A stretch of 47,403 nucleotides of DNA, taken from the IMG/VR virus record IMGVR_UViG_3300037137_000541, positions 1 through 47,403 of that record; one strand, written 5' to 3'. The notes beneath the pieces were generated by a model. That model saw nothing but the letters and a program-made list of their open reading frames with translations, was not told the origin of the DNA and made no database searches. Numbering within the stretch: the stretch's first letter is position 1; every line of letters begins with the position of its first letter. Made by a program: the position numbers and the translations under genes. This DNA is from a virus. Below are positions 3,997 to 47,403 of this stretch, piece after piece.

Positions 3997-4350
3997 GTGG
4001 CCTACACCAAAAAACAGCGAAGAGTGTACAACGCAGCCTATCGACTCACTCCGACAGGCCGGGCCGCCCGCGCTCGTGCTGCTACCCGTGCTGCTGTCCG
4101 ACAACGGTTGCTTTATCCCGATCAGGTGGCCGCCCATCATGCAGTCAACAACGCTATTCGTGGTGGATATCTTATTCGCTTGCCATGCGAGGTTTGCGGC
4201 GAACCGAAGAGTGAGGGTCATCATTTTCTTGGGCATGTGAAAGAACACTGGTTCGATATTCAATGGTTGTGCAAGAAGCATCATAGCGAATTACACAAAG
4301 GAGAAAACAAATGCGACTTAGCAAACGCGACAACGGGGATGGGTATGTAA
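3997..4350 (+). CDS. HNH endonuclease, GTG start
   Basis: 117 residues. The start is GTG 3997, eight to ten bases after GGAG; the open frame extends further left but overlaps the previous gene. The N-terminus is basic (YTKKQRRVYNAAYR) and the C-terminus carries an HNH/zinc motif: PCEVCG, then GHHFLG, then WLCKKHHSELHK. This matches the free-standing HNH nucleases that move between phage genomes. It is closely related to the protein at 4595-5095. Its last 40 bases overlap the next gene, and the tail after ELHK (GENKCDLANATTGMGM) is read from that gene's start region. Confidence 0.8.
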   Translation: MAYTKKQRRVYNAAYRLTPTGRAARARAATRAAVRQRLLYPDQVAAHHAVNNAIRGGYLIRLPCEVCGEPKSEGHHFLGHVKEHWFDIQWLCKKHHSELHKGENKCDLANATTGMGM

Positions 4351-4592
4351 TGTGGCTGGGTGCAAGGGATACCTACGCATGGGCAAACAAGCCTGGGGCA
4401 GTGTGGCCGTGTAGCCAATTAGCCGGGCATCGGCTTGTTGTGACAGTAGAGCGGAATGGCCTATGCGGGCTTGCCCGTGACGGGCATCAAACGGGGTCAG
4501 TGAGTGAAAGTGAGCTGATCGCAATTGTTACCGACTATTTGCCCAAAGGGTTAAGGCATCTTTGGCCTAGCTATGAAGCAGAGGCGGCATAA
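4311..4592 (+). CDS. Unknown early protein between two HNH genes
   Basis: 93 residues from ATG 4311 behind AAAGGAGAAAACAA, overlapping the end of the preceding HNH gene. The fold is probably mixed beta/alpha, with WLGARDTYAW near the start and a helical C-terminus. No family recognised. Its Shine-Dalgarno lies inside the HNH coding sequence, so the two genes were probably joined by invasion of the HNH gene. Confidence 0.65.
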   Translation: MRLSKRDNGDGYVMWLGARDTYAWANKPGAVWPCSQLAGHRLVVTVERNGLCGLARDGHQTGSVSESELIAIVTDYLPKGLRHLWPSYEAEAA

Positions 4593-4594
4593 TC

Positions 4595-5095
4595 ATGCCG
4601 TTTAAGTCAAAAGAAAAGCGAGCGGCATACTCTAGGGCGTATGTACAAACCCCTGGGGGTAAGGCAGCGATTGCTCGCTACGCGACTTCTGCTAAGGGTA
4701 GAGCAACCAAAGCCCGAAACAGCCGTTCTCCCGCAAGGAAAGCATATCGGGCATTGCCCTCGTCTAAAGCGTGGTGGAAAGCGTATCGCCAAACTGTATC
4801 GGGCAAAAGGGCATGTGCTGTTGGACAGGCTAAGTATCGCCGGTCGAAAAAGGGAAAGGCATACTTAAAGGCCGGACGGAAAGCATACCACGCGCGTCAC
4901 CCGGATTATCAGCGCGTCCACAATGCTTTCAACCAAAAGATTCGCTCTGGTCGTATTGCCCGGCAGCCCTGTGAGGTATGCGGGAGTATACCGAGTCAGG
5001 GTCATCATCCTGATTATTCAAAGCCCTTGGAAGTGCAATGGCTCTGCCGAAAGCACCATCAGGAATTGCACTCGATTACAGTAAAGGAACATTAA
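4595..5095 (+). CDS. HNH endonuclease
   Basis: 166 residues. A long Lys/Arg/Ala-rich N-terminus (residues 1-110, with KSKEKRAAYSRAY and several SK/GK repeats) should bind DNA. The C-terminus has the HNH/zinc motif PCEVCG, GHHPDYSKPLEV and WLCRKHHQELH. It is a paralogue of 3997-4350. Its final codons are part of a 28-base direct repeat (5065-5092) that recurs at 5528-5555 and supplies the ribosome site for the following gene. Confidence 0.82.
   Translation: MPFKSKEKRAAYSRAYVQTPGGKAAIARYATSAKGRATKARNSRSPARKAYRALPSSKAWWKAYRQTVSGKRACAVGQAKYRRSKKGKAYLKAGRKAYHARHPDYQRVHNAFNQKIRSGRIARQPCEVCGSIPSQGHHPDYSKPLEVQWLCRKHHQELHSITVKEH
5065..5092 (+). repeat. 28-bp direct repeat, copy 1
   Basis: Perfectly repeated at 5528-5555. 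It includes the end of the HNH gene and the AAAGGAACAT ribosome site. The two genes between the copies (5096-5308 and 5305-5547) look like a segment inserted or duplicated by recombination at this sequence. Confidence 0.85.
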
Positions 5096-7878: not shown

Positions 7879-8177
7879 AACTCCCTAATCAGATGACACT
7901 CGCGGAAGTGACCGACTGGGCATCAGGGAAGATGGTAGAGCAGCATCATGCGCACAAACCCCCGTTCTCTAAGGACAATCCCGCGACAATAGATAGGGCA
8001 GACGTGCGAGAATGGATAGATAAGCTGGCTGCTTTAGAAGCCCAGCAAGGTGCCGTGCGACGTGCTCTATGGGCAGCAGCAGGCTTGCCGAAAAGGTCAT
8101 CGTGGTATGAGTCAGAATGGCAGGGGGTATCGTTCGCTCTTGCATACGCCCGACTGCTGAAGGGCGAGAATGCTTGA
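7875..8177 (+). CDS. Helical unknown protein, GTG start
   Basis: 100 residues starting at GTG 7875, directly behind GGAGGTGAGC and overlapping the previous TGA. Mostly helical, with a Trp-rich C-terminal half (SSWYESEWQGVSFALAYARLL). No recognised family. Confidence 0.65.
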   Translation: MKLPNQMTLAEVTDWASGKMVEQHHAHKPPFSKDNPATIDRADVREWIDKLAALEAQQGAVRRALWAAAGLPKRSSWYESEWQGVSFALAYARLLKGENA

Positions 8178-8367
8178 GCTTTTGACCGAATTGGAAGTAT
8201 GGGGGGTGCCCCCGGATTGCTTGACATTCGCTCAATGGAGGGAATGCGTGCACAGACGGCTGGAAGAAATCATGCACACTCTAGAACGGGAGCGAGTACA
8301 TCCGGGCTACGGGTATGCCCTACGCCAGGCTCGCGCTCAAGTGTGCAGGGGGTTAGAAGATGCTTGA
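8170..8367 (+). CDS. Small unknown protein starting MLELLTE
   Basis: 65 residues, overlapping both neighbours by about eight bases. It opens with MLELLTE, the same seven residues that open the next protein and, as ELLTE, the one at 8887. The rest is unrelated helical sequence. This suggests the start region was copied in tandem. Function unknown. Confidence 0.6.
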   Translation: MLELLTELEVWGVPPDCLTFAQWRECVHRRLEEIMHTLERERVHPGYGYALRQARAQVCRGLEDA

Positions 8368-8887
8368 ACTTTTAACTGAGGCACAAGTTGCCGCTCTAGC
8401 TCAAGTGCATCCTCGCACGATACGGCGTTTGATTGATAGGAGCAAGTTGCCCGACTTGGAAAAACGTAAAGAACGGGCACGAGAGCGGAGCCGGGAGTGG
8501 TACGAAGTCCACAAAGAGCAGATTCGTTCACGGCGTCGGGCGTATCGCGAAGCTCACAAAGAGCAGATGCGGGGGTATATGAAGGTGTATAACAAAACCC
8601 ATAAAGAGCGGTTGCGGAAGCAGAGTCGAGAGTACAGGTATGGGGTGACGCCTGAGATGTATGAAGGGTTATCGCGAGAACAAAGTGGGCGATGTGCCAT
8701 ATGTCGCCAGTCCCCAATTCGCAGGCATCTAGCCGTAGACCATTGCCACGATACGGGCGTTATTCGTGGTTTACTATGCCACCGGTGCAATACCGCAATC
8801 GGTTTGCTGCGCAACGATGCTGCAAAATGCAGACACGCGGCGGAATATCTAGAAAAAGGGCAATCAAAACCATTGGAGTCAGTCTAG
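8360..8887 (+). CDS. HTH-endonuclease VII (HNH) fusion
   Basis: 175 residues. Residues 1-31 (LTEAQVAALAQVHPRTIRRL) are the start of an excisionase/MerR-like helix-turn-helix. Residues 32-95 are a highly charged helical linker with three KEQ/KER repeats. Residues about 100-165 are a recombination endonuclease VII/HNH domain: CAICRQ, HLAVDHCHDTG, IRGLLCHRCN and IGLLRND. The HTH breaks off after SKLPDLE, where its downstream neighbour continues to a complete HTH. The gene therefore looks like an HNH domain that captured, or interrupted, a copy of the neighbour. Confidence 0.82.
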   Translation: MLELLTEAQVAALAQVHPRTIRRLIDRSKLPDLEKRKERARERSREWYEVHKEQIRSRRRAYREAHKEQMRGYMKVYNKTHKERLRKQSREYRYGVTPEMYEGLSREQSGRCAICRQSPIRRHLAVDHCHDTGVIRGLLCHRCNTAIGLLRNDAAKCRHAAEYLEKGQSKPLESV

Positions 8888-9135
8888 TGGAATTACTCAC
8901 AGAAAAAGAAGCTGCCATTATTGCTAAGGTTCATCCGAGAACCATTCGACGCCTCATTTCTGGGGGGAAATTGCCGGCGCTAAATTTTGGAAATGGGGGA
9001 CGGCGGAAAGTCTATCGTATAGACCCCGCTGCTTTGCTGAATGTGCAACCAGTACATCTGCCCCTCCCCCGTGAGAGGCATAGGCGAAGTCAACTCCCCG
9101 CATCGATCATGGGGGGCGTGAAGCTACGTGATTGA
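8887..9135 (+). CDS. Excisionase/MerR-like HTH protein
   Basis: 82 residues from GTG 8887, which overlaps the stop of the upstream gene (TAGTG). Residues 2-50 form a complete small winged HTH: ELLTEKEAAIIAKVHPRTIR, then RLISGGKLPALNFG and RRKVYRIDPAALL. This is the pattern of excisionase-family DNA-binding proteins. With no integrase present it is more likely a transcription regulator or directionality-like DNA-bending protein. The C-terminal 30 residues are Pro/Arg-rich. It is the intact paralogue of the truncated HTH in 8360-8887. Confidence 0.75.
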   Translation: MELLTEKEAAIIAKVHPRTIRRLISGGKLPALNFGNGGRRKVYRIDPAALLNVQPVHLPLPRERHRRSQLPASIMGGVKLRD

Positions 9136-11281: not shown

Positions 11282-11731
11282 ATGGAACCGTCCTGCAAAA
11301 CATGTACGAAATGCGGAGTATCTCAATCCGTGGGTCAGTTTGCCCACCGCAGGGGAGCTAAGGATGGGTTAGCCTCTTGGTGTCGTACTTGTTCTAAGAA
11401 GAATTCTAGGGATCACTATTTGCGTAATCGGGAGAAGTATTTGGGCCGACATAGAGAGTGGCGTAGGGCGAATGACGGGGGGCATTGGGCACAAACCAAG
11501 ACGCTGTATTCTGTGACAAAGGAACAATATCAACTTCTACTGCGGACTCAGAACGGGGTCTGTGCGATATGCCGCTGTGTTCCGGGTAAACGGCATCTCC
11601 ATATAGATCACTGCCATGAATCTGGAAAAATCCGGGGGTTGCTGTGTGGAAATTGCAATCGAGGTATCGGGTATCTGCGGGATGATGTAGGAATACTTCG
11701 GCTTGCTCTGGTCTATTTGGAGAACGCATGA
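11282..11731 (+). CDS. Recombination endonuclease VII (HNH)
   Basis: 149 residues. An N-terminal zinc finger (CKTCTKCG at 5-12, CRTC near 38) is typical of stand-alone phage endonuclease VII proteins. The C-terminal nuclease has CAICRCVPG, HLHIDHCHESG, KIRGLLCGNCN and IGYLRDD. T4 endonuclease VII of this family resolves Holliday junctions and branched DNA; single-domain relatives like this one often behave as homing nucleases. The stop overlaps the polymerase start (ATGA). Confidence 0.82.
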   Translation: MEPSCKTCTKCGVSQSVGQFAHRRGAKDGLASWCRTCSKKNSRDHYLRNREKYLGRHREWRRANDGGHWAQTKTLYSVTKEQYQLLLRTQNGVCAICRCVPGKRHLHIDHCHESGKIRGLLCGNCNRGIGYLRDDVGILRLALVYLENA

Positions 11732-18283: not shown

Positions 18284-18352
18284 CGGCCGGTAGCTCAACT
18301 GGATAGAGCACGCTTAAGTGATGAGATGCGGGTTCAAGCCCCGTCCGGCCCA
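18284..18352 (+). tRNA. tRNA-like element, truncated anticodon arm
   Basis: Acceptor CGGCCGG (18284-18290) pairs with CCGGCCC (18345-18351) at six of seven positions; the first pair is C-C. The TA bases, D-arm GCTC/GAGC with loop AACTGGATA, and T-arm GCGGG-TTCAAGC-CCCGT are all standard. Between the D and T arms there are only 18 bases, where 22-23 are expected, and no 5-bp anticodon stem can be formed; the best is a 3-bp stem around TTAA. It is therefore either a decayed tRNA gene or a tRNA mimic. No CCA is encoded. The primase-helicase ATG is ten bases downstream. Confidence 0.55.
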
Positions 18353-40264: not shown

Positions 40265-40293
40265 ATTATACCACACAAACGGCCCTTTGTCCA
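40265..40293 (-). promoter_or_regulatory. Leftward promoter for scaffold and capsid
   Basis: On the minus strand TGGACA (40288-40293), a 17-base spacer ending in TGTGG, and TATAAT (40265-40270). It shares the TTTTTA(T/C)TGGACA block and TGTGGTATAAT with the promoter at 46461-46489. Predicted start near 40258, leaving a 60-base leader before the scaffold TTG. Confidence 0.82.
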
Positions 40294-40322
40294 ATAAAAA
40301 CTGAGTTATCCTCTCCTTTTTT

Positions 40323-45679: not shown

Positions 45680-46308
45680 CAGGTCGCCTCGATAAACTCG
45701 TGAATATTGCCCACAACCCCTGGCTCAGCCTTGATCCCCGACGTATCCTCGACATTTTTGTCCGGCCATAACCATATACTATCAAGGGCGTAATAGACGC
45801 CGGGAAGGCCAGTCAGTTTGAAATGCCCAGGGTTACAACTCAGGATCACGATGACTCGGCCAGGGTTGGCGTCCCTGATCTTGCGAGCCATCAGGTCAAC
45901 GCGGACGGGGATACGATTGGACGCCTCGGGGAAGAGATACCAACCGGGCAGACCCGTCACGATGTCATATCCCACCGAGCCGTGACAAACAAAGAGCAGG
46001 GCATAAGGGAAACGACGTGCAACCTCGATCTTCCACGCCGCCACGAACTTATCATACAGCTCGCCCTCGACTTGCCTCTGGACTTTCACCCCGTCGTAGA
46101 CGTAAACAGAGGGAGAAGAAGAGAGGGGGGGTTGAAGAAAATACCCCAGGCCGATTCCACTCCACAGTAGGAGGTTCAACCACAGGAACATGTTCACCTT
46201 CGGATGAGAAAAGAAACGGCTACACTCCCCTCGGAGGTGACGGATGAATCGCCAATATCTCGCACCCCATTGCGAATAGTCATAATCATCACACTGCATC
46301 GTATTCAC
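45679..46308 (-). CDS. Membrane-anchored caspase-like protein
   Basis: 209 residues, possibly from Met4. A basic N-terminal segment (residues 17-37) and one membrane helix at about 39-58 (NMFLWLNLLLWSGIGLGYFL) predict N-in topology with the C-terminal domain in the periplasm. That domain has ALLFVCHGSVGYD with His109 and RVIVILSCNPGH with Cys158, each at the end of a hydrophobic strand and 49 residues apart. This is the layout of the His-Cys dyad in caspase-like (clan CD) proteases. It is the first gene behind the promoter at 46461 and overlaps a small lipoprotein gene. Function and protease activity are inference. Confidence 0.6.
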   Translation of the reverse strand: MNTMQCDDYDYSQWGARYWRFIRHLRGECSRFFSHPKVNMFLWLNLLLWSGIGLGYFLQPPLSSSPSVYVYDGVKVQRQVEGELYDKFVAAWKIEVARRFPYALLFVCHGSVGYDIVTGLPGWYLFPEASNRIPVRVDLMARKIRDANPGRVIVILSCNPGHFKLTGLPGVYYALDSIWLWPDKNVEDTSGIKAEPGVVGNIHEFIEAT

Positions 46309-46536
46309 CGCTTCTTTTTTGTCTTACAGATTGACTGAAGTGTCAGAGATTAAACAACCTCATCCTCATCCACCGAATCATCTGGATCAGGTTGAGAATC
46401 CCAGAATAGTCGCATATTTTCCTCGCGATAAGGGACAAGGAAAAAAGAAAAGAACACTCTATTATACCACATAACCAGCCCCGTGTCCAGTAAAAACCGA
46501 ATTATTTTGCAGATTCACACGGACTACCCTTACGGG
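46198..46536. repeat. Right copy of end overlap, part 1
   Basis: Identical to 1-339. It contains the start of the caspase-like gene, its promoter, and the last codons of the HNH gene. Confidence 0.9.
46461..46489 (-). promoter_or_regulatory. Leftward promoter of the late arm
   Basis: On the minus strand TGGACA (46484-46489), 17 bases ending in TGTGG, then TATAAT (46461-46466). Predicted start near 46454; the leader before ATG 46308 is about 145 bases. It is the first promoter of the leftward arm and nearly a copy of the one at 40265. Confidence 0.82.
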
Positions 46537-47170
46537 TGAACCGGGAAATGTAACTCGCCGCATTCATCAATAAACCCAGACTATCCTTAAAGTTACCGAG
46601 TCCGAGATTACAGTTGTAACACAACAACCCGCGAATTTTCTCCGCCATGTGGCAGTGATCCACACACACGGAAGTTGCTGTCCCATTCCCCCAGCGAATA
46701 TGCTGCCCGCATATCCGGCACTTCCCGCGTTGTTCCTTGTACATCCCCAGAAGGGACTCCGGCGTCACCCCGTGATTGACGACGATCCGATGAAAATGTT
46801 GCCGCCGGGCTTTTTGCCGAGTCGTCAGAGAGGACGGAAACATCGGGGGTCGTACACGTTTCTGGTATAGCCCCGCCGCGACCAGCCAATGCTGCACAGT
46901 CTCAGTACACATCCCAAGTTCCCCGGCGATCTTAGTACAAGTCTCCCCCTGTCGATACATCTCTAAGACCCGCTGTTGTGTCTCGTCGGAATACCCCTTT
47001 CGTCCGGGACCGGGGGCCGTAGACTCGTATCCACGACCACGCAGGATCGCGTAGATCGCCATAGGAGTCACCCCGTAGTCCTCGCATAGCTGTTTCACTG
47101 TCCAACCCGTTCCCCGAAGTCGAACGATGAGATTCTTATCCTCGACACTCAGTCTCCACGATGTTTTCAT
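46502..47170 (-). CDS. HTH-endonuclease VII (HNH), optional gene
   Basis: 222 residues. Residues 1-95 hold two HTH-like units (GTGWTVKQLCEDYGVTPMAI and GETCTKIAGELGMCTETVQH), then a basic linker. Residues 140-205 are a recombination endonuclease VII/HNH domain: CRICGQHI, VCVDHCHMAE, KIRGLLCYNCN and LGLGNFKDS. It has its own promoter with the ATG six bases after TATAAT, so it is probably leaderless and independently expressed. The 714 bases 46537-47250 are absent from the left copy of this locus, so the gene is a mobile homing-type nuclease seen in two states. Its last codons are in shared sequence. Confidence 0.85.
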   Translation of the reverse strand: MKTSWRLSVEDKNLIVRLRGTGWTVKQLCEDYGVTPMAIYAILRGRGYESTAPGPGRKGYSDETQQRVLEMYRQGETCTKIAGELGMCTETVQHWLVAAGLYQKRVRPPMFPSSLTTRQKARRQHFHRIVVNHGVTPESLLGMYKEQRGKCRICGQHIRWGNGTATSVCVDHCHMAEKIRGLLCYNCNLGLGNFKDSLGLLMNAASYISRFTRKGSPCESAK

Positions 47171-47176
47171 ACCCCA

Positions 47177-47204
47177 ATTATACCACAGATAAATAAAATA
47201 GCAA
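47177..47204 (-). promoter_or_regulatory. Promoter of the optional HNH gene
   Basis: On the minus strand TTGCTA (47199-47204), a 16-base spacer ending in TGTGG, TATAAT (47177-47182). Six bases separate it from ATG 47170, as with the early gene at 1467, so the transcript should be leaderless. Confidence 0.7.
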
Positions 47205-47250
47205 GAGATATAAGACCTATTTTTTTAAAAATCTCAGAATCGAGGGTCAG

Positions 47251-47403
47251 TAGATATACGATATTCGATTCCCCGCATGAGAAACCAAGGGTGGGACCGT
47301 GGGTACGCCCGATAACAAGGCCAGGGTCCGATAATAACGTGTGCATCTACACGCAAACCCCGTCTTAGTCCTATAACATATATTATGTTAAGCCCATAGG
47401 ACT
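47251..47403. repeat. Right copy of end overlap, part 2
   Basis: Matches 401-555 with a 2-base shorter G-run (47301-47303). It ends at the last base of the nested palindrome. Confidence 0.88.

Follow-up and report, generated by a model that had tools for sequence, protein, structure and literature searches.

The terminal regions of the virus contig analyzed here, a single stretch of 47,403 bases (the window), are on balance best explained as the overlapping ends of a phage genome of ~46.2 kb that runs beyond its own start, each end representing a different haplotype of the same non-coding locus. We lean toward the view that the longer haplotype arose by the gain of a free-standing homing-type nuclease gene, which took the place of 61 bp of the ancestral short haplotype. 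Such an arrangement would provide an occupied and an empty allele of a single phage locus, for which the order of origin is known and the 61 bp are the candidate cleavage target. It would also bear on the cost of mobile nuclease genes to the phage, in that the gene has removed a conserved control element.

Comparison of the window with itself by blastn shows that positions 46198-46536 are a second copy of positions 1-339, identical at 339/339 bases, and that the right flank of the short allele (401-555) matches that of the long allele (47251-47403) at 153/155 positions. The sole difference in the right flank is a 2-base change in the length of a G-run (CCGTGGGGGTACG at 447 versus CCGTGGGTACG at 47297). 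Flank matches of such length by chance can be excluded. A preliminary description of this DNA had proposed that the two overlapping ends are the same locus in two states, separated by 61 and 714 bases and with essentially perfect flanking identity, and the alignments bear this out exactly. Counted around the short allele, the genome is 46,197 bp long. Exact searches with both flanks retrieved two relatives that span the locus, the contigs L005 and L006. The features of the locus are as follows:

340-400, 61 bp: stretch specific to the short allele (self-blastn), an apparently ancestral, conserved non-coding element, matched at 100% identity by L005 and, over 59 bp, at 95% by L006
349-374: inverted repeat AGTTATAC-N10-GTATAACT within the 61 bp (inverted-repeat search), missing from the long allele
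46461-46489, minus strand: strong promoter-like site of the minus-strand operon, TGGACA-17-TATAAT with TG, in both alleles (other copy at 264-292)
46502-46536, minus strand: resident DNA of the shared flank acting as the last 10 codons and stop of the nuclease gene, also in the gene-less L005 and L006
46502-47170, minus strand: HTH-HTH-Endonuclease VII gene (P0001), intact open reading frame of 222 aa
46537-47250, 714 bp: stretch specific to the long allele (self-blastn), not homologous with either the 61 bp or L005/L006
47177-47204, minus strand: promoter-like site of the nuclease gene, TTGCTA-16-TATAAT with TG, a consensus match only

The two relatives differ considerably in their distance from the window, L005 being 93% identical over 5 kb of late genes and L006 about 67-77% near the locus. 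Together with the window ends, they show an orthologous site with and without the nuclease gene: L005 and L006 each have the short form, and neither has the gene. Because the short form is kept in these two diverged, gene-less relatives (100% in L005, 95% in L006), it is by parsimony the older one. The sequence comparison thus identifies the short form as the ancestral, conserved state and favors gain of the gene over its loss. No other long allele was found in the viral_contigs collection, where very close records may have been masked from the search, and no DNA match for the last half of the window was found among phage records. Alignment of the 61 bp to the 714 bp revealed no detectable homology, which implies that the gene replaced the 61 bp rather than being simply inserted or deleted, leaving the long allele without the conserved element.

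In the alignment of the window with L006, the 61 bp are 93% identical compared to 81% for the near flanks (Fisher p 0.02). Other blocks of the same ~1.1-kb non-coding region equal them in conservation, and judging from the alignment the 61 bp are one among several constrained elements of that region. The inverted repeat at 349-374 occurs once in the window even when up to 3 mismatches are allowed, and exact matches to its 22-base core occur only in L005 and L006 among the viral contigs searched; it is possibly a binding site for a protein. RNA structure predicted for the 61 bp is no better than for shuffled sequences (z 0.57 and -0.87). The surrounding region (310-1421, ~1.1 kb without a convincing gene) lies between divergent plus- and minus-strand operons. 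Within it are an inverted repeat of 42 nt (889-1053), direct repeats at 664-736, and blocks that are 95-100% conserved in L006, features that make it a candidate for an origin of replication or a regulatory region. An 11-base inverted repeat at 516-558, 91% complementary, lies where L005 and L006 have either no corresponding DNA or dissimilar DNA, and the right end of the contig falls within its second arm, after ATAGGACT.

The 714 bp carry most of the 222-residue gene, which reads from 47170 to 46502 on the minus strand. The longest stop-free frame of the long-allele stretch is 240 codons, compared to a maximum of 220 in 500 base shuffles, but domain matches are the stronger evidence that this is a gene. 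Residues 128-208 match the Pfam family Endonuclease_7 (PF02945; E 9e-17, 61.2 bits against a curated cut-off of 23.6), two helix-turn-helix (HTH) regions precede this domain (HTH_7 at 10-44 and HTH_23 at 63-96, Pfam), and PHROGs also identify an endonuclease VII (E 2e-24). C151, C154, D171, H172, C184, C187, and N188 are invariant across six relatives (alignment A1), and both the cysteine pairs of the zinc site (C151/C154 and C184/C187) and the DH...N catalytic motif (D171/H172 and N188) are present, with roles assigned by comparison with T4 Endo VII. The AlphaFold model is weak (pLDDT 64); its top Foldseek match is T4 Endo VII (1e7l), with a probability of 0.98 but a poor E of 0.2. By its sequence, the nuclease is a member of the Endonuclease VII/His-Me finger family, so that of the earlier label "HTH-HNH gene" the HTH part stands, whereas HNH has to give way to Endonuclease VII type.

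A profile search found no N-terminal HTH half like that of P0001 among 80 Endo VII loci of viral contigs, peptide-pattern searches found no relative of the protein in viral_contigs and genome_contigs, and the phage records searched for the protein gave one distant Endo VII. PDB sequence matches to TALE repeats were tiny, repeated, and spurious. The nuclease gene is intergenic and no intron was detected at Rfam gathering scores; the gene is therefore free-standing.

The nuclease frame passes the left junction after residue 212 and terminates at a TAA in resident DNA. The preliminary description had placed the last ten or so codons and the stop in shared sequence, as they are, and had suggested that the insert may have used resident DNA for its end. 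This suggestion is supported by the existence of the tail sequence in both gene-less relatives, with the L005 counterpart (7969-7998) encoding an identical peptide. Among 80 Endo VII relatives, the protein ends at a median of 8 residues past the equivalent of Tyr207, and the junction lies 5 residues past Tyr207, while the 15-residue tail of the nuclease past Tyr207 falls within the natural range. Residues 214-222 have a pLDDT below 50 in the AlphaFold model, as expected if the resident tail forms a disordered end. The sequence data support, but do not prove, that the native stop was lost.

The nuclease stop codon is located ~12 bases upstream of the -35 box of the minus-strand operon's promoter-like site. 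As for the gene's "own promoter" noted previously, there is indeed a consensus match at 47204-47177, but the promoter scan returned only 3 sites versus 1.9 expected from shuffling, and a transcript from this site would be leaderless because the -10 box ends 6 bases ahead of the ATG. A promoter-sized stretch of 45 bp, 46461-46505, recurs with 82% identity at 40265-40309 ahead of another minus-strand operon, and the pair is apparently a duplicated late promoter.

Under the homing reading, a free-standing homing-type nuclease gene would have invaded the control region next to the late promoter, upstream of the promoter of the minus-strand operon. Its product would recognize DNA through the two HTH regions and cut it with the single His-Me finger domain of Endo VII type. 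Entry would have removed the 61 bp of conserved, palindrome-bearing DNA, with resident codons completing the open frame, and the long allele would now segregate with the empty allele. Cleavage by the nuclease would fall in or close to the conserved element of the empty allele, and the break would be resected and then repaired from the long allele via the near-identical flanks, whereby the gene is copied in. Without the 61 bp, the long allele would be uncuttable if the target lies within them. The gene is probably selfish. Gains and losses of such nuclease genes are common in phages. The window has two further Endo VII genes besides P0001, and none were found in the partial contigs of L005, L006, L007, and L008, so that the family is probably gained and lost within this virus group. 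The preliminary description left it undecided whether the locus records gain or loss of a homing nuclease: the short form in L005 and L006 tips this toward gain, and homing itself is plausible given the domains, the existence of empty sites, and the fact that Endo VII genes vary in their presence within this virus group.

An Endo VII domain alone does not prove homing, as it is also found in Holliday-junction resolvases, and the loss of a conserved element, unusual for a benign insertion, counts against the homing reading. The gene could instead have come from a co-infecting relative through recombination, either illegitimate or of the ordinary homologous kind, its product serving as a junction resolvase, in nicking, or in HTH-based regulation. 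The Endo VII family consists primarily of resolvases, the exchange of the 61 bp for the gene looks untidy, and the region is mosaic among relatives, L005 diverging just past TAGATATA while the match to L006 continues. We nevertheless regard such a gain without homing as rather unlikely, given that an Endo VII gene just upstream of the DNA polymerase gene (11282-11731) could already act as resolvase and that the HTH-HTH fusion suggests sequence-specific targeting.

Other alternatives concern the reality or the direction of the change. The long form is present only at the contig end, where an assembly chimera might have produced it, either as something other than one real molecule or from another virus in the sample. 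The contigs L007 and L008 also match the region and end nearby, at window positions 46316 and 46427, a possible sign that the locus assembles poorly, and contigs terminating near the site were excluded from the evidence for two alleles. However, the 714 bp are joined at both ends to homologous flanks in collinear positions, and there is a second difference in the right flank, GGG in place of the GGGGG of the short-allele copy, which is the state found in L006. One random mis-join is insufficient to produce this, and a chimera is accordingly improbable. The linkage of GGG to the long allele hints at a separate haplotype, and it is possible that the long allele comes from a closely related but different virus. 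Least probable by far is the "deletion scar" of the preliminary description, whereby the short allele results from loss of the nuclease gene: the shared flanks would fit, but the 61 bp are unmatched in the 714 bp and conserved in the two diverged gene-less relatives.

Among known systems, the gain of a homing-type gene proposed here most resembles the free-standing seg and mob homing genes of T4-like phages, which are intergenic, disturb or embed promoters, and spread via break repair with co-conversion (PMC2988022). Like these, P0001 joins a nuclease to a DNA-binding part and lies next to a promoter in an intergenic control region, and its site has occupied and empty alleles with near-identical flanks. 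Unlike them, it has two HTH regions in combination with a His-Me finger of Endo VII type, took the place of 61 conserved bp, and has its stop codon in resident DNA, and its mobility is putative. T4 endonuclease VII itself (gp49; PDB 1e7l, 1en7) has the same nuclease domain family, PF02945, and is the top, albeit weak, Foldseek match, but is a 157-residue junction resolvase without N-terminal HTH regions. The modular homing genes of vibriophage ICP1 likewise have DNA-binding domains common to, or swapped with, other phage genes, although they are mainly of the T5orf172 and HNH types with zinc-finger modules (PMC10448857).

A second element of the window (8360-9135) is of greater interest than the locus of the 222-residue gene itself. 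It begins with the following gene:

8360-8887, plus strand: second Endo VII gene, fused to the start of a resident HTH gene

This gene opens with 31 codons of the resident excisionase-like HTH_17 gene (8201-8453 is identical to L005 at 252/253 positions), past which the frame switches to the nuclease. Its stop lies in a TAGTG that overlaps the start of a second HTH copy (8887-9135). The first 89 bases of this copy are only 62-64% identical to L005, to another relative, L017, and to the displaced original, compared to 80% for the same 89 bases between L005 and L017 and 83-87% for the remainder of the HTH gene. L005 and L017 have one intact HTH gene each. By analogy, 8360-9135 is possibly a cut-and-rescue element. 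In mobile ORFs of fungal mitochondria, an endonuclease ORF is accompanied by a diverged duplicate of the gene end, the two copies being 63.5% identical in the case of Glomus atp6 (PMC3630166). The element described here similarly pairs an endonuclease ORF with a diverged replacement gene part, but has its duplicate at the start of the gene, and in a phage. A tentative idea, which we consider less likely to be right than wrong, is that the Endo VII nucleases of this phage group spread by building from resident DNA. P0001 would owe its last codons to a conserved control region in which it replaced the palindromic element, and the gene at 8360-8887 would have taken the first 31 codons of an HTH gene while supplying a diverged replacement start. 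If true, such self-building combined with a rescue start would amount to a natural cut-and-rescue drive in a phage.

An Rfam tRNA call at 18284-18352 (plus strand, 39.1 bits) lies inside the primase ORF and is unconfirmed by ARAGORN. A further nuclease-like gene is present at 4595-5095 (plus strand; PHROG 2340, endonuclease), and in the equivalent part of the L005 contig there is an HNH-like ORF at 4283-4636.
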